Shown piece by piece: positions 1 to 14,774 of a DNA stretch of 64,000 bases. Made by a program: the position numbers and the translations under genes. The first letter of the stretch is position 1. Every line of letters begins with the position of its first letter. The notes under the pieces are model-generated. The model was not told where the DNA came from, ran no database searches, and saw only the letters and a list, made by a program, of their open reading frames with translations. Source of the stretch: Planctomycetaceae bacterium (GTDB taxonomy: Bacteria; Planctomycetota; Phycisphaerae; Phycisphaerales; SM1A02). The stretch lies in contig CANJHD010000005.1 of assembly GCA_947474065.1 (NCBI GenBank), positions 1 through 64,000 of the forward strand, given 5' to 3'.

Positions 1-1330
1 CATCATGCTTGCGGACTGGGGCTACTGCGCGGCCACGATCACGTCGGTCAGCCCGGCTCAGGGCGGCGCGCAGGGAGGGACGGTGATCTCGATCACGGGG
101 ACCGGCTTGTCGACGACGAGCAGCGTCAAGATCGGCGGCGTTGCCTGCACGAACGTGACCGTCCTCACTCCGACACTCGTGCGTGCCACCACCCCGCCCG
201 GCCCGTTGGGCGAGGCGTCCGTTGCAGTCACGACGAGCGCGGGGACCACACTTGCGTCGACCCCGTTTACATACGTCCTGCAGCAGGTGTCTTCGATTAT
301 CCCGAACACCGGTAGCTACACGGGCGGCACGTCGATCACGATCACGGGCGCGTATCTCGCGGCGACGACAGGCGTGACCATCGGTGGCGTTCCCGCCACG
401 AATGTGGTCGTTGTCAGCGCAACGCAGGTGACTGCGGTGACGCCAGCTGGCTCAGTGGGCACGGTGGATGTGGTGATCACGGGTACGAAGGGCGCGGTGA
501 CGGTGGCGGGTGGATTTACGTATCAATCGATCATCGTGCCAACGTGGGCGACACTGGTGGAAGCGATGCCAGATCCAGCGGTGGTGACGGATTCCACGCT
601 GCGCGCAGCCATATCAGCGAGCGGTCTTGCATGGCGCGTGCGTGATACGGCGACGCAGATGGAGATGTTGTTGGTTCCACCGGGGACGTTCACGATGGGA
701 TGCACGGCGTCCAATCTGTCTGGGTGTTTCGGCAGCGAGAACCCCACGCACTCGGTGACCTTGACGCAAGCGTTCTACATGGGTCGTTATGAAGTGACCC
801 AGTCGCAGTGGGCGGCGAAGATGGGGAGCAATCCGAGTAACTTCCAAGGTTATTCTGACTCCGCAAGCCGACCGGTTGAGATGGTGTCATGGGACACGAT
901 TGGGGGCTATCTATCAGCGACGACCATGCGTTTGCCGAGCGAAGCAGAGTGGGAGTATGCCTGCCGCGCAGGTACGACGACTGCGTTCAACATTGGGGGA
1001 AGCGATGATGCCACGGTGGGGAATTTTGCGTGGTACAGCGCGAACTCCGATAGCCAGACGCACGTCGTGGGCGGCAAGGCGGCGAATGCACTTGGGTTGT
1101 ATGACATGTCCGGCAACGTGTGGGAGTGGGTGAATGATTGTTTTGACACCGATTACTACTCGGTGAGTCCATCGACAAACCCGCTTGGTCCGGTGTCTGG
1201 TTCGCACCGCGGGCTACGTGGCGGCTCTTGGAAGGACTCAACGGGCTACTTGCGCTCCTCCCAACGCGGCGCAGCCGTGCCCAGCACCGCCCCCTACGAC
1301 TTTGGTTTCCGCGTCGTAAGAAACCCCTGA
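1..1330 (+). CDS. IPT/TIG-repeat protein with C-terminal formylglycine-generating-enzyme-like (SUMF1/FGE-sulfatase) domain; 5' end probably outside the window
   Basis: Two IPT/TIG-like repeats (ITSVSPAQGGAQGGTVISITG, VSSIIPNTGSYTGGTSITITG), then MLLVPPGTFTMG...RLPSEAEWEYACRAG...GLYDMSGNVWEWVND...GFRVVRNP; reading frame is open to the window edge. Confidence 0.85.
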   Translation, partial: IMLADWGYCAATITSVSPAQGGAQGGTVISITGTGLSTTSSVKIGGVACTNVTVLTPTLVRATTPPGPLGEASVAVTTSAGTTLASTPFTYVLQQVSSIIPNTGSYTGGTSITITGAYLAATTGVTIGGVPATNVVVVSATQVTAVTPAGSVGTVDVVITGTKGAVTVAGGFTYQSIIVPTWATLVEAMPDPAVVTDSTLRAAISASGLAWRVRDTATQMEMLLVPPGTFTMGCTASNLSGCFGSENPTHSVTLTQAFYMGRYEVTQSQWAAKMGSNPSNFQGYSDSASRPVEMVSWDTIGGYLSATTMRLPSEAEWEYACRAGTTTAFNIGGSDDATVGNFAWYSANSDSQTHVVGGKAANALGLYDMSGNVWEWVNDCFDTDYYSVSPSTNPLGPVSGSHRGLRGGSWKDSTGYLRSSQRGAAVPSTAPYDFGFRVVRNP

Positions 1331-1537
1331 TTGCGTTCCCTTCCTCTGTTGATCTTTCTTTCTGCTTGGCTTCCTGATGCCTGCTTAGTTGAAGAATGCC
1401 CCAGAAGCGTTCGATTGAGCGGGAATGCGTAATCCCACTCATAGCCTCAACGAACGTCCTACAAGCCAGCCTAGGGCTCTAAATCAGGCATCTGGTCGAG
1501 CACTAAGCGGGACTATGGAGAACTTTCAGTGCCTTCG

Positions 1538-1656
1538 ATTACCCAGCACTCAGATACCAGGCTGATTGGGGTTGTTGGGTAATGATTGGCTGCAGGACAC
1601 CCCTCTGACACCGTAATTACCCACTCGTATCGACTTCCCCCAGATGGCTGGGTAAC
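1538..1656. repeat. four TTACCCA repeats in alternating orientation
   Basis: ATTACCCA 1538-1545, TGGGTAAT 1576-1583, ATTACCCA 1616-1623, TGGGTAAC 1649-1656. Confidence 0.7.
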
Positions 1657-1954
1657 CGAAATTTGAAATCCCTGGTTTCGTTGGGTCAGCATCGGCTACC
1701 GAAATGGACTTCACCAGAGGGGCCCCGAATCGAACCTGACTGTTTGGACACGATCAATCCCAGAGAATCGTTTTAGAGCCCACGGTATTCCGAGACCGTC
1801 CAAGACGGCAATCCGGCATAGAGACCGCTTCTGGAACCATCGTAGGACGATTAAACCCCGTCCGAGTGAAGAACCGGATCCTTGGTCGGATGTCCTGTGT
1901 CGCTATCAAAAATTCTTTAAAATTCTCGTAGGCCTCAAAGCCATCGATACCGGC

Positions 1955-2401
1955 TCAGAGACCACTCCGGATCTCGGCAAGTGTGAACCATCTCTGACTA
2001 GCTGTCGGTGTGGGAGAATTGACTCCCCTCCGTCCTGATGAACCGAGCAATCGGTTGGAGATTGTCTGCTGGTGCACGGTAATGCTCTCACCCAAATAGC
2101 CATTCAGCACAGAAGCATTGAGCAGGGAAGCAACTTTAGCATCGGGACTAACCACCAGGAAATCCCATGCACTTATCCCGTACTCATCCCCGGTCGGGGA
2201 AAGAAGAATGGCTCCATCCTCAAGACCGAGACTGCCCACTATCCAGTTGGCTTTGTCCAGCGCAATCATGATGGCGTCAAGGGGATCTGGATATGGGAAA
2301 TCGAAGGCGATCTGGAACTGAACAAGCGATGGTTCTTCCGCATTGGACTCAAGAAGGAATCGTTTAAATCTCTTTAGATGGCTACGTTGAAATGATCTCA
2401 T
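1955..2401 (-). CDS. hypothetical protein (148 aa) in the A+T-richer island
   Basis: ORF with protein-like composition, same strand as the Rep-like gene; no recognised family. Confidence 0.4.
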   Translation of the reverse strand: MRSFQRSHLKRFKRFLLESNAEEPSLVQFQIAFDFPYPDPLDAIMIALDKANWIVGSLGLEDGAILLSPTGDEYGISAWDFLVVSPDAKVASLLNASVLNGYLGESITVHQQTISNRLLGSSGRRGVNSPTPTASQRWFTLAEIRSGL

Positions 2402-2647
2402 GTAAATATTTAGGAAGTTTCATGGGCCATTGACTGAAGATCGTAAGAGAGGACCGGGATCAAGAATTTCTTAAAAGAACTTTGGCCCAAGAGACCTTCA
2501 GAGCATGAGTTGATGGAACCGGAAGACCATCTCTTAAGAGGGGCTCAATCACTCCTGAATCAATACACCAAAAAATATATAAAAACTTTGCACTAGAGAA
2601 TCCAAGAGGTAGTTCAGTTTGAAACTGGTGAACCAACTAATGAACCC

Positions 2648-2670
2648 GAATCATGATTCTCAAGAGAATC
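2648..2670. repeat. overlapping palindromes
   Basis: GAATCATGATTC (2648-2659, perfect) and GATTCTCAAGAGAATC (2655-2670, 7-bp arms). Confidence 0.8.
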
Positions 2671-3046
2671 AAATTAGGTACTTTAATAGGGACTGTTGGT
2701 GGAGCTTCTACAGCTGATGAACCAGAAGGTAGTAGCTATAGAGAGATCAAGATTTATTATAAAAATTAGAACCAATGGTTGTAGAGGTTCTGTTGATTGA
2801 TTCCCTATAGAGAACCATTAGTGATGTACCTGATTTACTCATTAGGTTGTTGGTGTGACTCATCTGGAACCTTAAGTACGTTGGAGATCTCGTTAGAGAA
2901 GATCCAAGAGGTTCTTGATGAATGTTGTATTGAGAAACTCTAGATCTGCTCATCTACCCTTATAGATAAGTTCACCACTAAGCAACACCAAGGAATCCTC
3001 TCAGCCTCTCACTTAAGCGGATCACTCTTGGATTTGTCTCAACTAT

Positions 3047-3523
3047 TTAGAACCAGATGACGGTCTCCCCTTTGTTCTGGGATATCCAATCTTTCATGGC
3101 ATAGTGAATCATTGGTGTTGCATCCTCATTCAATCGCTCAATCAAGACTGATGGAGGTGTGGCAGAAGAAAGTTGTGTACCTCTATATTTGTGTTCTGCC
3201 TGCAGTTCAAGCTGGTACGTGAGATAGTCAGATCCCTCAACAGTAAAATTGGGTTTCTTCACGTTGGAATGCACAACCAACCCGTGAAAGTGCCAGTGAA
3301 CACTTGTGGAATATTCTGGAAACAGAATCACGTGACCTGGTTCTAGTTGTTCCCTCTCATGAATTCTCTTTGCAAGGGACAGACCACAGCGGTAAATCTC
3401 CTCCTGCGTTCGCAAACAAAGATTCGCGGGAGTGATAGTGATGTGATGAGTCCATGGAATTGCAGAAACGACTGCTGTCCAAGCTTTCTTAGTCTGACCT
3501 GATGATTGATGATATTTTTGCAT
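3047..3523 (-). CDS. putative HUH-superfamily rolling-circle replication initiator / Rep-like endonuclease (158 aa)
   Basis: Motif I-like HHITITPAN, motif II VHWHFHGLVVH (HxH), motif III-like MIHYAMKDW (YxxK), in canonical order. Confidence 0.65.
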   Translation of the reverse strand: MQKYHQSSGQTKKAWTAVVSAIPWTHHITITPANLCLRTQEEIYRCGLSLAKRIHEREQLEPGHVILFPEYSTSVHWHFHGLVVHSNVKKPNFTVEGSDYLTYQLELQAEHKYRGTQLSSATPPSVLIERLNEDATPMIHYAMKDWISQNKGETVIWF

Positions 3524-3563
3524 AGCCTATAATTATGTAGTCAATATGAGTAAATGCAAATAA

Positions 3564-3857
3564 TTATTGTCCATCTTTCACATCCGACCGCGTGTGAAGA
3601 AGAAGTCTTGCCAATGACAACAACGCCTGACGTGCATCAGGACCGAGCGTTGCAATTGCTTTGATCAGGTCAGCTACAAGAGGATCGATGTTGCTTTCGA
3701 CAAGGCGATCTGACACCACTACTGACCATGTACTTTGCGAACTACCTGAAATGACTGGTGTATTTTGATTCTGCTTTGGACCGATCAGGTCCACTCTCAG
3801 CACAGAAGGCCAGCAGACAATGCTGGCCTTCTTTCTTTTTAGATTGTGTTCAGTCAA
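3564..3857 (-). CDS. hypothetical small protein (up to 97 aa; true start may lie further downstream)
   Basis: ORF directly upstream of the Rep-like gene on the same strand; its annotated N-terminus overlaps a perfect stem-loop, so the ATG is doubtful. Confidence 0.35.
   Translation of the reverse strand: MTEHNLKRKKASIVCWPSVLRVDLIGPKQNQNTPVISGSSQSTWSVVVSDRLVESNIDPLVADLIKAIATLGPDARQALLSLARLLLHTRSDVKDGQ
3804..3840 (+). terminator. rho-independent terminator
   Basis: Perfect 12-bp stem AGAAGGCCAGCA / TGCTGGCCTTCT with 5-nt loop GACAA, followed by a T-rich tail (TTCTTTTT). Confidence 0.75.
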
Positions 3858-6308: not shown

Positions 6309-8912
6309 TCAATATGAATTGACCGGAATTGAACCCGGATGCTTCACCTCAAAGGCACGGACGCGCTCCCGGCACGCCTCTAGTTTTTCTGCGGGCAATG
6401 CAACCGGATCGGCGACATTCCATGCTTTATAGAGTTGGCACAACGCGAGCAATCCGGACGAACGCCGCTTGGGGTCTATGCCCAAGGGCTCAAGCAACGC
6501 CCATGCCTCTTGCAAGGGCCTCTCTGCTTCCGGATATTGCTTCGTTGCAGTCAGCGCACGCCCGAGCGCCATCCGCGCCGCAGCGCATAGCCATGGGTCG
6601 GCACCGGCGACGCTATCCAAGATTCTCACTGCCTCACGCCCAGTGACTACCGCATCTGCATAGTTGTCTTGATCGCGAAGCAGGCTAGCTAGATTCATGT
6701 AGGCAATAGCCGCATCGGGCGATGACCCCTGACCTGTTTCATTCAAAATCTCAAGGCCTTCGCGTGTGTACCGTTCTCCTTCTGCAAACTCCTTCTTTGC
6801 ACGTTTGATGAGAGCCAGACCGCCAAGCACGGTGGCTCGGTTTGGGTGCTTCATTCCAGCCAATTTTTCAATGATCGCGAGCGCCTCGCGCGCGTGCTTC
6901 TCCGCATCGTCGAGTCGACCAACGCCTCGTTCAATCAGTGAGAGGTTGTGGAGATCGAACATCGCGGTGTAACTATTTGACTTGCCGAGTGCACGATTTA
7001 TTTCTATGGACTCCTCGGTAACAGTGATTCCCAATTCCATTTCCCCGAGTATGAAATACACGATCCCGAGGTTGTTGAGTGCTGATGACAATTCATCGCG
7101 CGGTGCGTCGGGAATCGAGCGAAGCAGGCGTACCGCTTCTTCAGCGTTTTGCTTTGCGTCTTGGATGTCGATTGCTTCGACACGTTGCGCATCAGCAAGT
7201 GTCGAAAGCGATCTTCCGCGCAGCAATCCATCCTGCGCGCGATCCGCGGCTGCGAGCGCCCGACGAGCCATGACCGCCGCCTCGGCTCCACGGCTAGCTA
7301 TGGCAATTCCAGCGGAACACTGGATCGCTAGTTTGCATTCAAGTGCAGCCATGTCCGTGTGGCTTGCTTCTAACGCGTCCAACCCAGCGCGGTATTGAAG
7401 TACCGCGTCATCATTTCGCCCAATCCCCGTGAATGCCCCGCCGATGGCGTAGCGAATCTCCGCTGCTTCTACCGGAGCTTCGCGCAACGCGCCCTTATCT
7501 AGATCCGCAACTGCCAAGGCCAGTTGCTCGCGCACGGTGACATCCTCGCGCCCACCCTGCGCTGTTGGGTCGGCACCCGCAAACACGCCCGTCATGTACT
7601 CCAGCACGCGCGCGTTCTGATCCGCACGACGCTGCGCTTGCGCACGCGCGTCCTCGGCGGCGGAGGCCTGACGCACCGAGAACGCCGTGGACGAAAGCAG
7701 CGCGATCGTCACTAAGGCTGCAACGGCCACGCCACGCCAATGGTGACGCGCAAATCTCATGGCACGACCAACACGTGAAGGATGCACTGCTGATGGCGTC
7801 TCGCCATCGCTCCAGAGTTTGAGATCGGATCGCAGTTCAGCCACCGATTGGTATCGCGCACCCGCGTCGGCAGAAATTGCCTTCAAACAAACTGCATCGA
7901 GATCACGATCGAACGATCGCGCCGCTGGTGCCAATTCAGACGGCGGAACTGGCGCATTGGCGCGAATGGCAACTGCAAGTCCCGCCCGCCCGCCGGCGCG
8001 CAATGAATCGGGGCTGCGTGGCAGACGATCGGCGAGCAATTCATAGAGAATGGTTCCGAGTGAGAACACATCGCTGCGCGTGTCGGGTGGATTTGCATCC
8101 GCCTGCTCGGGCGACATGTATTCCGGTGTTCCAACTAATGCGCCTTCCACCGTATTGGTGCCTGCACCCAAGAACGCCGCATCCGCTAATTTGGCTACAC
8201 CAAAGTCAATAACGCGCGGTCGAGCCACTCCAGCATCGTCAGTTACTAGCAGATTCGCTGGCTTTAAATCGCGGTGAATCACACCGCGGCGGTGTGCATG
8301 TTCAACAGCATCACATGCATCGGTCACCATGCGCACGCGGCTATGAACGTCCAGCGAATGCTCTCGCGCAAAGTCGGTAATAGGCAGACCGGGGACGAAT
8401 GGCATTGCAAACCACGGTCGCCCGTCGGGCATCTCGCCCGTCTCCAACATGGCGGCGATACCAGGGTGATCAAGCGAAGCAACGGCCTGTTGCTCGGCAC
8501 GGAAGCGCGCATGCGCAACGGGTGACGAGAGCACATCTCGCAAGACCTTCACTGCTACGAGGCGCCGAACTGGATGCTCTTGGCGACCAAGGAACACTTC
8601 ACCGAATCCTCCTGCGCCAAGTCGATGCAACAGCACGTACCGGCCAGCACTACCGTCGCCATGCGCCATTGCGTCGCTCAACTCGATGCGCATGGCGCCC
8701 ATCGCCGCGTTCACACGGCCGGCGCCCGACTCGAAGGCCACAACCATCGCCATGGCGGCGGCACGCTCTGCTGCAGTGATATCCGTATGTGCGGCGAGCC
8801 AAGCAGGGCGTTCCACAGATGGAACGTCAAGCGCGGCAAGAAATAGATCCTCGACGATCATGGTGCGAGGCGCTGCATTCCCGGTAGTCATCGAATTATT
8901 TAATAGACTCAC
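6309..8912 (-). CDS. serine/threonine protein kinase with C-terminal TPR repeats
   Basis: LGAGGFGEVFLGR, VAVKVL, VIHRDLKPANLLV, VIDFGVAKL, GTPEYMSPEQ; TM segment then TPR-like helices. Confidence 0.9.
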   Translation of the reverse strand: MSLLNNSMTTGNAAPRTMIVEDLFLAALDVPSVERPAWLAAHTDITAAERAAAMAMVVAFESGAGRVNAAMGAMRIELSDAMAHGDGSAGRYVLLHRLGAGGFGEVFLGRQEHPVRRLVAVKVLRDVLSSPVAHARFRAEQQAVASLDHPGIAAMLETGEMPDGRPWFAMPFVPGLPITDFAREHSLDVHSRVRMVTDACDAVEHAHRRGVIHRDLKPANLLVTDDAGVARPRVIDFGVAKLADAAFLGAGTNTVEGALVGTPEYMSPEQADANPPDTRSDVFSLGTILYELLADRLPRSPDSLRAGGRAGLAVAIRANAPVPPSELAPAARSFDRDLDAVCLKAISADAGARYQSVAELRSDLKLWSDGETPSAVHPSRVGRAMRFARHHWRGVAVAALVTIALLSSTAFSVRQASAAEDARAQAQRRADQNARVLEYMTGVFAGADPTAQGGREDVTVREQLALAVADLDKGALREAPVEAAEIRYAIGGAFTGIGRNDDAVLQYRAGLDALEASHTDMAALECKLAIQCSAGIAIASRGAEAAVMARRALAAADRAQDGLLRGRSLSTLADAQRVEAIDIQDAKQNAEEAVRLLRSIPDAPRDELSSALNNLGIVYFILGEMELGITVTEESIEINRALGKSNSYTAMFDLHNLSLIERGVGRLDDAEKHAREALAIIEKLAGMKHPNRATVLGGLALIKRAKKEFAEGERYTREGLEILNETGQGSSPDAAIAYMNLASLLRDQDNYADAVVTGREAVRILDSVAGADPWLCAAARMALGRALTATKQYPEAERPLQEAWALLEPLGIDPKRRSSGLLALCQLYKAWNVADPVALPAEKLEACRERVRAFEVKHPGSIPVNSY

Positions 8913-8952
8913 ATCGAAAGTGTAAACCGCCTAGCAGCCCCCATGTGTTCGC

Positions 8953-10500
8953 ATGCCATCGCTACGATGGATGCCCAAAGCCGTACCCCCGACCATGCCA
9001 AAGACCAAGCCAACAATTATGTCCAAGCGCACCAAGAAATCCGTATCCGCTACTGCTCACCGTTCAAACACCCGCATTGAGTCCGACAGCATGGGCGAAA
9101 TGCACGTCCATCACGACCTGCTACACGGCGCCACGACGCAGCGCGCGGTGCTGAACTTTCCAGTGAGCGGTCGACCACTTCCGCCGCAAGTCATTGCCGC
9201 CTATCTGGAATTGAAGCGTGCCTGCGCGCAAGCCAACCTCAAGCTTGGTGAGATAAAGCGCGCCAAGGCGACCGACATCGTGGAGTCATGCGAACGTCTG
9301 CTTGAAGACTTCGCTGACCGCCGCGCACAAGTGATGCGCCACTTTCCGATTGATGTGTTCCAGACTGGATCCGGAACCAGCACCAACATGAACGTCAATG
9401 AGGTGATTGCCAACACCGCAAGTGTCATGCGCGGCAAGAAGATCGGCTCCAAGGATCCGCTGCATCCGAACGACGACGTCAACTACGGCCAGAGTTCAAA
9501 CGACACGTTCCCGACTGCCATGCAGGTGGCTGGTGCCGTGGCGATCCACGAACAATTGGTACCTGCGCTCAAGCGGTTGCATCGCGCACTTGATGCCAAG
9601 GCCAAGGCGTGGGACAAGCATGTAAAGATCGGTCGTACGCACTTGATGGACGCAACTCCCATCCGTGTTGGCCAGGAGTTTGGCGGCTATGCGGCGGCGA
9701 TTGCCTATGCCGTTGCTCGCGCCGAGCTTGCCCGCGATGTGTTGGCGCGCAACCTGCCAATCGGCGGTACTGCCGTTGGTACGGGCATCAACGCCAATCC
9801 GAAATTTGGGCGCACCGTGAGCGCGATTCTCAGCAAGGATCTCGGAATCACATTTGCCGAGGCAGACAACCACTTTGAAGCACAGGCAACGCGCGACTGC
9901 GTCGTGGAAGCAAGCGGCATGCTCAAGACGATCGCCGTCAGTATGAGCAAGATTGCAAACGACATTCGCTGGCTCGGTAGCGGTCCACGCTGCGGTCTTG
10001 GCGAACTCATGCTTCCGGCCACCCAGCCTGGTAGCAGCATCATGCCAGGAAAGATCAACCCGGTGATCTGCGAAAGCGTCATGATGGTTGCGTGCCGCGT
10101 CGTTGGAAACGATGCATGCATCACTCTGGGTGGATTCGGCGGCATCGGAAGTCTGCTGGAACTGAACGTTGCCATGCCGATGATCGCTGACAGCCTGTGC
10201 GAATCCATCGATCTCTTGGCGAACGCCTGCGACATGTTCCGCGACAAGTGCATCGAAGGCTTGGAGCTGCACCCGGACGCATCAAAGACGGTGGAGCGCA
10301 GCCTGATGATGGTCACCAGCCTGGCGCCCGTGATCGGCTATGACAACGCTGCCAAGGCCGCCAAGGAGGCCTACAAGAGCGGGGAGACCATTCGCGCCTA
10401 TGTGCTCCGAAACAAGATGGTGGAGCCGAAACTGCTCGACCGGCTGCTGAACCCCACGTCTATGACGAAGCCGGGTGGCAAGGGGCCGGGCGGCGGGTAA
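8953..10500 (+). CDS. fumC: class II fumarate hydratase (N-terminal start uncertain)
   Basis: TGSGTSTNMNVNEV, LHPNDDVNYGQSSND, GRTHLMDATP, GSSIMPGKINPVICES. Confidence 0.88.
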   Translation: MPSLRWMPKAVPPTMPKTKPTIMSKRTKKSVSATAHRSNTRIESDSMGEMHVHHDLLHGATTQRAVLNFPVSGRPLPPQVIAAYLELKRACAQANLKLGEIKRAKATDIVESCERLLEDFADRRAQVMRHFPIDVFQTGSGTSTNMNVNEVIANTASVMRGKKIGSKDPLHPNDDVNYGQSSNDTFPTAMQVAGAVAIHEQLVPALKRLHRALDAKAKAWDKHVKIGRTHLMDATPIRVGQEFGGYAAAIAYAVARAELARDVLARNLPIGGTAVGTGINANPKFGRTVSAILSKDLGITFAEADNHFEAQATRDCVVEASGMLKTIAVSMSKIANDIRWLGSGPRCGLGELMLPATQPGSSIMPGKINPVICESVMMVACRVVGNDACITLGGFGGIGSLLELNVAMPMIADSLCESIDLLANACDMFRDKCIEGLELHPDASKTVERSLMMVTSLAPVIGYDNAAKAAKEAYKSGETIRAYVLRNKMVEPKLLDRLLNPTSMTKPGGKGPGGG

Positions 10501-12437: not shown

Positions 12438-14182
12438 TGCCGCGCCTGCGACTTCGCTGCATCAAACGCAACGCCAAGAACGCCCGATGGAATCACCACA
12501 GCAAACTCCCAAGTGGCATCGCGCGAACGGACCGCTGTGGCGATCGGCTCGAGACCTTCGGGGGCGATGGGGAGCATGTCTGCCGCTCCGCCAGGGAACG
12601 ACTCCGCTACCTGTCGCGCCGCCGTGAGTAACTGTCCGACGCCAACGAACACCACAAGATCCGCATCGGCGATCAGCCACGGCGACATCGCGCGCACCAT
12701 GCCGTTCGTAGCGAGGGTCTTCTTGCTCGTGCCTGACGCAGCGGAACACGCACGATCGAGCACATCGGTCCGCTGGCTGTATGTGACCACCAATGCGCCG
12801 GGTAATTCGCGCGCAAATCCGTGCAGGCCGCGACTACTCACGATGAACTGCTTGGCAAGCCGCTGCATGAAATCACCACCCGGACCCATGATCACTTCCT
12901 TCACCGCAAATGCAGAGACGGTTGAACCATCCTTCAACTGTCGCGCCTCTTCCCATGTCGGCTCGCTGCGAATGCCGCCAATTTCACCAGTCTGCGATTC
13001 GATCCACGACTTGAGTGCACCCTTCACCGCCGCCGTGTCTCGCGTGACTACAACGAACGACGCATCATTGAGGACGCCGCCAACAGCGATACCAAGGCGA
13101 CTCGGATACGCGGCTACTTGCACCTGATCAATCTTGTCTTGCACCGTGTCGAGCCACGGCGGAAGATTGATCCGATCGCTACCCGGTACTGTTGCCAAGA
13201 ACGAACGAACGCGCGCCGCGCCGCCCATCGCTGCAAAGTCAACACCCGCTGCTCCGTAGAACGCCGCGTCTGGAAGACGGTTCAGCAACGCGGTGACGTC
13301 ATGCATCTGTGCGTCGGCAGCAGGTATGGCCTTGGCAACATCACCTTCGGGATCAAATCGGGCATAGGCGCGGATTCCAACAGCAAGGGCATCAAAGTCG
13401 ATGGCGAATACCGCGTCCGTCACTTGCGCAAGAATCTGCGCCCCGCGCTCCCGGCCTTTACCAATCGTCTCAAGCGCGGCTGCCGGCGCCGCCTCTGGCT
13501 CCTTGCCACGCGGCAGCATGTTGGCAGCAGTGATGTCCAATTCACTCGCCTTGCGCGCAACATCGGCGAGCGATTTCATCACCGGCGCTGACGCCCATGA
13601 GAAGCAATCGCTCATTCGGATAATTTCCATCCCGCGCCGACCGACGCGCGTGGCTAGTACCGCAGCGAACCCCTCTTTGGGCTCCCACGTTGCTAGTGAA
13701 TCAGGCGCATCCGCAACAAGAACATGGCTTGGGGTCTTGCGAATCCAAACCGCCCGCGGCGCAGTGTGTGTGCGCATCGCACCCGCACCAAGTTCCGGCG
13801 CTTCAGTAAATGTTGCTGCAACGAATGCATCGGCGTCTGTCACTGGAAACGCGGCGATGTTCGTGAATCCCGTCGCACGCGGCGCAGCCCAAGCAACGAA
13901 TGCCCCGCGATCATCAAACCCCGCTCCAATGCCAGCCTGAGCTTTCAAGAGGTCGATAGGCCGCCCACCAAGCGCTGCCTCAGCCTTCCCCATTCGATCA
14001 ATCGCTAATTGCAAATCATCACTCGCGCCCTTGACGTTTGAAACCACTAGCACCCCCGCCGCGTCAGCAGGTATGAGCCGGAGTGCGTCGTCAAGAGTTC
14101 CAGCGAAGGCTGATGCGTTAGCAAACAACACAGCCAACACCATGGTTGGGCGCGGGCGAAAGGGGGATGAAATCAGATGCAT
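12434..14182 (-). CDS. conserved hypothetical exported protein (DUF3352-like)
   Basis: Signal peptide from internal Met (MHLISSPFRPRPTMVLAVLFANASAFAG); 4-nt overlap with folP; family assignment tentative. Confidence 0.6.
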   Translation of the reverse strand: MHLISSPFRPRPTMVLAVLFANASAFAGTLDDALRLIPADAAGVLVVSNVKGASDDLQLAIDRMGKAEAALGGRPIDLLKAQAGIGAGFDDRGAFVAWAAPRATGFTNIAAFPVTDADAFVAATFTEAPELGAGAMRTHTAPRAVWIRKTPSHVLVADAPDSLATWEPKEGFAAVLATRVGRRGMEIIRMSDCFSWASAPVMKSLADVARKASELDITAANMLPRGKEPEAAPAAALETIGKGRERGAQILAQVTDAVFAIDFDALAVGIRAYARFDPEGDVAKAIPAADAQMHDVTALLNRLPDAAFYGAAGVDFAAMGGAARVRSFLATVPGSDRINLPPWLDTVQDKIDQVQVAAYPSRLGIAVGGVLNDASFVVVTRDTAAVKGALKSWIESQTGEIGGIRSEPTWEEARQLKDGSTVSAFAVKEVIMGPGGDFMQRLAKQFIVSSRGLHGFARELPGALVVTYSQRTDVLDRACSAASGTSKKTLATNGMVRAMSPWLIADADLVVFVGVGQLLTAARQVAESFPGGAADMLPIAPEGLEPIATAVRSRDATWEFAVVIPSGVLGVAFDAAKSQARQ

Positions 14183-14186
14183 GCGC

Positions 14187-14774
14187 TCAGGATACGGGCT
14201 TGGTCGCAAGTGCCTGTTCAATGGCTTTGCGGAGTTCTTCACCCGTTGGCTTTACCCCTGAGCCATAGAACGCTATCGGCTTGCCATCCTTGCCCACCAA
14301 GTACTTGCCGAAATTCCAGCTTGGCAACTTGCCGGTGCCAGCACTCAGGAATGTGTAGATCGCGCTCTGCCCTTCACCCGGCTTGGTCTGCACTTTGGAC
14401 ATCATGGGGAAAGTCACTCCATAGTTCTTCGTGCAGAAATCACGAATCTCCGATGAAGTGCCGGGCTCCTGCCCACCAAAGTCATTGCAAGGAAAGCCAA
14501 TCACCACAAGACCCTTGTCCTTGAATTCCTTCCAGACGGTTTCTAATTCCGCATACTGTGGCGTGTATCCGCAGCGGCTTGCCACATTCACAACCAAGAC
14601 GACCTTGCCCTTGTAGATAGCAAGGTCCACAGCCGCGCCATCAAGGGCAGTGGTCTTAAAGGAGTACAAACTGCCATCCTTGGCGGGGGCTGGCACAGAT
14701 ACCGCCTGCCCGGCACCAAAGCCTGTCACCATAGAAACGACGCCGAGGGCAGATGCAATAATCTTCTTGGACAT
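14187..14774 (-). CDS. glutathione peroxidase family protein, exported
   Basis: VNVASRCGYTPQYAELETVWKEFKDKGLVVIGFPCNDFGGQEPG; N-terminal signal-like sequence. Confidence 0.9.
   Translation of the reverse strand: MSKKIIASALGVVSMVTGFGAGQAVSVPAPAKDGSLYSFKTTALDGAAVDLAIYKGKVVLVVNVASRCGYTPQYAELETVWKEFKDKGLVVIGFPCNDFGGQEPGTSSEIRDFCTKNYGVTFPMMSKVQTKPGEGQSAIYTFLSAGTGKLPSWNFGKYLVGKDGKPIAFYGSGVKPTGEELRKAIEQALATKPVS

Follow-up and report, generated by a model that had tools for sequence, protein, structure and literature searches.

A rare HUH Rep-like protein in a tRNA-integrated planctomycete element, and integrase genes that appear to lose a conserved end at each insertion

The Rep proteins of rolling-circle replication (RCR) plasmids are recognised by three published signatures, UUTU, HUH and YxxK (PMC6668415), which occur in the order I-II-III, the reverse of that seen in Mob proteins (PMC5714925). 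In the stand-alone Reps of plasmids, including those of plasmids that have become integrated, these motifs are found with a single Tyr in the YxxK and no helicase domain (PMC6668415). A comparable arrangement, namely a U-T-U motif, a Glu ahead of the HUH and then YxxK, characterises the REP_ORF2-G2P family (PF23343), members of which we found in 14 of 150 genomes of the class to which the organism described here belongs; the planctomycete PF23343 sequences used to show the E...HUH...YxxK order were picked by a motif filter. Another set of systems is defined by where the attachment site lies. In the SSV-type, or suicidal, integrases of archaea, attP falls within the integrase frame, which is split on integration, and a 2021 review described recombinases that disrupt their own gene as exclusively archaeal (PMC8371274). 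The closest bacterial precedent known to us is the integration-dependent immunity of mycobacteriophages, where attP, at a tRNA core, falls within a coding frame and the encoded protein, there the phage repressor, loses its C-terminus on integration (PMC9262239); our search covered the open-access subset of the literature, in which an earlier bacterial description may be missed. Here, we describe a planctomycete locus that appears to combine features of both sets.

The sequence analysed, referred to below as the window, is a stretch of 64,000 nucleotides of contig CANJHD010000005.1 (Planctomycetaceae bacterium, assembly GCA_947474065.1), the relevant features of which are collected in Table 1. 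A first-pass annotation of this DNA had reported a 158-aa ORF containing HHITITPAN, VHWHFHGLVVH and MIHYAMKDW, and all three were confirmed, in that order, in an ORF on the minus strand. Motif I (H27-I28-T29-I30) is a loose fit to UUTU, while motif II (H78-F79-H80) supplies the HUH and motif III (Y141-A-M-K144) the YxxK. Of 20,000 shuffled versions of the protein, just 1 matched a regular expression combining motif I, HUH and YxxK, and this ORF alone did so among the window's 218 open frames with 100 aa or more. The length of the ORF, by itself, is poor evidence for coding, as one of at least 158 aa arose in 23 of 500 dinucleotide shuffles of positions 1331-3780; coding status is supported mainly by the alignment with a single homologue, the local score of which, 71, exceeded the highest from shuffles, 59 (p ~3e-6, for this single comparison).

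Table 1. Positions of the element's features in the window, with the evidence for each
Feature	Position	Strand	Evidence
103 bp shared exactly with the terminus of contig C59 (L096), on which the element's other end lies	1..103	plus	Sequence identity
Probable cargo: TIG + FGE-sulfatase-domain protein, 5' end on C59	5..1330	plus	PF03781 1.4e-46, PF01833 2.7e-27
A+T-rich stretch, no convincing genes; candidate replication-origin region	1331..3046		ORF and family searches
HUH Rep-like protein, 158 aa	3047..3523	minus	ORF and motifs HITI 27-30, E70, WHFHGLV 77-83, Y141-x-x-K144
Probable severed integrase 3' end, 71 codons	3564..3780	minus	Stop 3564-3566; in-silico circular junction
attR core CCGATCAGGTCCA, displaced 3' end of tRNA-Ala(GGC), 13 nt	3781..3793	plus	Synteny and the intact tRNA's identical 13 nt

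This homologue, which is 27% identical, was the one Rep relative found when we searched genomes of the same family (181), order (400) and class (397), and it was again the only one when 85k species genomes were searched by protein and with motif patterns; equivalent searches of phages, plasmids and viral contigs returned none. It is encoded at L026:4903-5379 in genome G017, from another planctomycete of that family (Planctomycetaceae bacterium D8_MAG_00020, JAIXYQ010000015.1). By sequence alone the homology of the pair is modest (E 0.002 per genome, with 101 genomes searched), and the residues common to both are W24, H26, T29, I30, P32, N34, E70, W77, H78, H80, G81, L82, V83, Y141 and K144. 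In the relative the three motifs read GVTI, in which T29 and I30 are invariant, HLH and YMNK, so that both histidines of the HUH, the Tyr and the Lys are retained, as is the preceding Glu; HxH and Tyr, the loss of which from homologues would have spoken against the first-pass assignment, are conserved in this one homologue. Four further loci with weak profile matches (L003, L010, L011 and L171) were rejected as relatives, being antisense or multi-stop frames.

Placement of the protein in a described family is less straightforward. Searches of Pfam, NCBIfam and PHROGs gave no above-threshold match, and the relative is likewise unrecognised by curated libraries. The best Pfam match is to REP_ORF2-G2P over residues 29-91 (13.2 bits, E 0.11), with which the protein shares the U-T-U motif, the Glu ahead of the HUH and the YxxK in the same order; it differs in scoring far under the curated cut-off of 27.8 bits and in being smaller than most of the members found. 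A profile-profile comparison (hhalign) with ten planctomycete PF23343-type sequences was non-significant, column shuffles scoring equally or higher. Two AlphaFold runs on two-sequence alignments, at a confidence too low to be informative (pLDDT 43 and 38), both placed the HUH on a strand and the Tyr on a helix, and Foldseek with these models found no match. The HUH assignment consequently draws on the motifs and their conservation, since the libraries and the profile-profile test lent it no support and the AlphaFold models were not usable. What stands of the earlier Rep-like reading is thus the identity and order of the motifs, their retention in the 27%-identical relative and the sub-threshold resemblance to REP_ORF2-G2P, whereas the predicted fold is of low confidence. 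At this motif level we regard it as probable that the protein is a very rare and divergent HUH-type Rep, which would represent a new branch of a well-known enzyme class.

The size of the protein and the distance from HUH to Tyr (~61-63 residues) would also fit a Y1 single-strand transposase, belonging to a small transposon that had landed in the island, as comparable values are known for the IS200/IS605 transposases. However, the gene is single copy within its genome, the protein has no Y1_Tnp match and its Tyr is followed by xxK, as in Reps, and the gene occupies the same relative place near attR in two different elements (see below), which together make a transposase very improbable.

The A+T-richer island in which the first-pass annotation had placed the gene is real, with a GC content of 45.9% at 1331-3780 and 57.9% in the remainder of the window, and it forms part of an integrated element. 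Compared with five same-genus genomes, host synteny restarts at 3781, where the window keeps just the last 13 nt of a tRNA-Ala(GGC); in all five the site is uninterrupted, with an intact tRNA-Ala(GGC) before the region equivalent to 3781 onward. The corresponding intact tRNA of this genome lies on another contig, C59 (L096 10012-10086, with the core at 10073), which also holds the upstream flank (at 95% identity to a relative), a tyrosine integrase (PF00589 5e-11, matching residues 236-387 of 462; PF13102 1e-8) and a Xis-like protein (HTH_17 5e-7; TIGR01764 1.1e-5, 25.6 bits, just under its cut-off of 28.8). Joining C59 to the window yields a 6,288-bp element bounded by CCGATCAGGTCCA. Near the contig break is a 160-nt stretch found 99% identical on a further contig of the genome (C26, L234), which also holds an 88% identical paralogue of the TIG/FGE-sulfatase gene. 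This copy of the stretch at window positions 1-103 explains the break, and because the join falls within a near-repeat, the centre of the element (the TIG/FGE-sulfatase gene) is less certain than its ends, each of which is internal to a contig. With this central join set apart, we have high confidence that the Rep lies in a well-delimited integrative element.

The earlier suggestion of an integrated plasmid, ssDNA phage remnant or transposon can accordingly be narrowed: integration of a mobile element is strongly supported by the split tRNA-Ala, the integrase, the Xis and the five uninterrupted sites, but nothing indicates a separate transposon, and the larger, scanned ORFs of the element include no capsid, terminase, zot-like or other phage gene. 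The adjoining repeats mentioned in the same annotation amount to one 15-nt tandem of 2.1 copies plus short chance-like pairs, and of its small unknown ORFs, the one that spans attR (3564-3857) most likely includes the cut-off 3' end of the integrase gene, discussed below. A 148-aa ORF within the A+T-rich part (1955-2401, minus strand) has a protein-like look and no family match, and an Rfam search returned nothing of note.

The co-occurrence of an integrase, a Xis and an HUH protein is also relevant to a rival explanation, in which the protein acts as a small relaxase for mobilisation and nicks an oriT, with the excised element using the conjugation machinery of another element. HUH chemistry is common to relaxases and Reps, and IMEs likewise contain an integrase, a Xis and an HUH protein. 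We nevertheless consider a relaxase unlikely: the motifs run I-II-III as in Reps and are reversed in Mob proteins (PMC5714925), the 158 aa leave no additional domain, and neither a coupling or mobilisation protein nor a relaxase-family match was seen.

The relative is housed in an element of its own, 13.5 kb long, at a tRNA-Val(CAC) with a 15/15 att repeat. The integrase of this element shares 33% identity with that encoded by the window's element (3.6e-52), a Xis and restriction-enzyme-like cargo are also present, and both elements follow the layout tRNA, int, xis, cargo, rep, attR, rep pointing the same way as int. The recurrence of one layout in two independent elements argues that rep belongs to the element. 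In the G017 element three small opposite-strand ORFs lie between the integrase tail and rep, so the idea of an int-rep operon is not general. Its cargo (L099:3765-6833) is a 1022-aa Mrr/ResIII helicase protein for which the best PADLOC match is a Type IIG REase-MTase (4e-91, N-terminal part only), making it a possible defence gene. A closer integrase, 54% identical and the closest found, is located beside a tRNA-Ala(GGC) in a genome of the same genus (G538:C171, L130), on a contig that ends inside the element.

Relatives of the window element's integrase (E <= 1e-25) are present in at least 34 of the 181 family genomes, mostly beside tRNA or tmRNA genes, and six further elements could be delimited by 22-28-nt perfect repeats. 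Five of these (L135, L139, L144, L159 and L161) are complete, at 5.9-11.3 kb with 22-26-nt perfect att repeats, and their target genes are a tRNA-Val, a tRNA-Tyr, two tRNA-Ile and a tmRNA. The sixth, L169 (G045:C44), is a 1.1-kb tRNA-Ala element with a 28-nt perfect repeat and consists of hardly more than a truncated integrase and tail. L139 and L144 contain AAA_25/Toprim-like primase/helicase genes, and L161 (tmRNA, 11.3 kb) encodes a DUF3987 protein showing weak matches to zinc-finger and Toprim domains. As these sisters carry primase/helicases where the window's element and its relative carry the HUH-type protein, a replication role for the latter is favoured, and one planctomycete integrase lineage can evidently pair with different replication modules.

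L161 additionally encodes a head-protease/major capsid fusion and a ClpP-like protein (12476-14395 and 7887-8945), and is possibly a capsid-encoding satellite or small prophage. That an element with a related integrase has a capsid gene, and others primase/helicases, is what might be expected were the window's protein the Rep of a phage satellite, or of a reduced ssDNA-phage-like element, that depends on a helper phage for packaging. Against this stand the lack of capsid, terminase and zot-like genes among the larger ORFs of the window's own element, noted above, and of phage, plasmid or viral-contig relatives of its Rep, and we rate such an origin as distinctly unlikely.

The reading we prefer, with a probability of roughly 0.6, is that the gene product is a stand-alone HUH endonuclease with a single tyrosine, and that it starts rolling-circle replication of the circle formed when the 6.3-kb element is excised. 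Int and Xis would excise the element, after which Rep would bind a candidate origin within it, with H78 and H80, together with E70, holding the metal; Y141, helped by K144, would then nick one strand and remain on its 5' end, leaving the remaining replication to host helicase and polymerase, as in RCR plasmids. An origin hairpin could not be singled out in the element. When the element is circularised in silico, xis, int (539 aa) and rep follow one another on one strand, with 40 bp between the integrase frame and rep. Excision may thus both restore the integrase tail and bring rep under the xis-int transcript, while reintegration would cut the integrase frame and disconnect rep from the xis-int promoter, so that replication would be favoured only after excision. 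In sharing the I-II-III order, the single-Tyr YxxK, the lack of a helicase domain and residence in an integrated element, the protein resembles the stand-alone plasmid RCR Reps (PMC6668415); it differs in matching no curated Rep family and having one detectable relative, and its element in entering a tRNA gene by means of a tyrosine integrase that it encodes itself. There is a slim chance that the ORF is instead decayed or unexpressed, the relic of a dead island, as no convincing genes occur in the 1.7 kb next to it, the integrase gene loses its end on integration and an ORF of this length is by itself close to chance; yet the motif residues are all intact and common to the 27%-identical relative, and the catalytic region of the integrase is complete.

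The restoration of the integrase frame is not peculiar to this element. Circularising the eight delimited elements in silico carries every integrase frame through the core, in frame, and on for 62-92 more codons that lie at the attR end; in the integrated state the frame continues instead into the antisense tRNA or tmRNA. A tail segment, DPDLAAVVxAWPxLPPAIRAGIVAMV, is strongly conserved in five of the eight, on a par with the catalytic core, and L169 has a diverged, clearly related version; severed tails are also present elsewhere in these and other genomes of the family. Among 12 tail segments there are 897 differences at codon position 3 and 346 at position 2, an excess that supports translation of the tail in that frame. 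Since the open length past the core is not significant for the eight elements taken together (Fisher p 0.067), the case for the tail is built on its sequence conservation and on this third-position excess. In the window's own element the tail is suggestive only: it is open past the core for its whole length with p 0.042 and resembles the conserved tails of the sister elements with p 0.007, and a profile search for tails missed it. The resemblance of the G017 tail to the family is not significant (p 0.11).

Orphan tails were also examined for the tRNA end belonging to the integrase of the same genome, and this proposal was rejected, the only match being one of 11 nt in G092; a T-loop remnant was found in just 3 of 10 orphan tails (chance 0.02 per window). 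An intact integrase joined to its tail was found neither among the matches listed from the 181 genomes nor in phages, plasmids or viral contigs. With every insertion, elements of this kind seem to sever a conserved end of the integrase gene that they carry, and we lean towards the view that a large planctomycete family carries attP inside the integrase frame, integration removing the conserved C-terminal tail and excision restoring it as a built-in state switch, which in the window's element would also join int to rep.

Such an arrangement is like that of the SSV-type integrases in having attP within an integrase frame that is split on integration (PMC8371274), but the present elements are bacterial, their integrases belong to PF00589/PF13102 and not to PF16795 (no match to the latter in that of the window's element), and they encode a Xis. 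Moreover, integration leaves the catalytic domain whole and severs the C-terminal tail alone, the PF00589 catalytic match of the window element's integrase lying wholly before the core. With the mycobacteriophage system they share an attP at a tRNA core in a coding frame and the loss of a protein C-terminus on integration, the protein truncated there being a repressor and here the integrase (PMC9262239). The Rep, like the element that carries it, adds to a known kind. Of the two results, the placement of attP within the integrase frame would, if confirmed, be new and the more interesting: integration-split integrases would extend beyond archaea, and a conserved tail that exists only when the element is excised would let the element sense its integration state. 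It would also explain the orphan 'AWPxLPxAIRAGIVAMV' mini-ORFs of planctomycete genomes as severed integrase ends. Finally, in several of these integrases a GGAxSGAL-like peptide motif flanks the att core on both sides (A5 alignment columns ~390-400 and 466-475), and the DNA encoding it might hold arm-type integrase binding sites.
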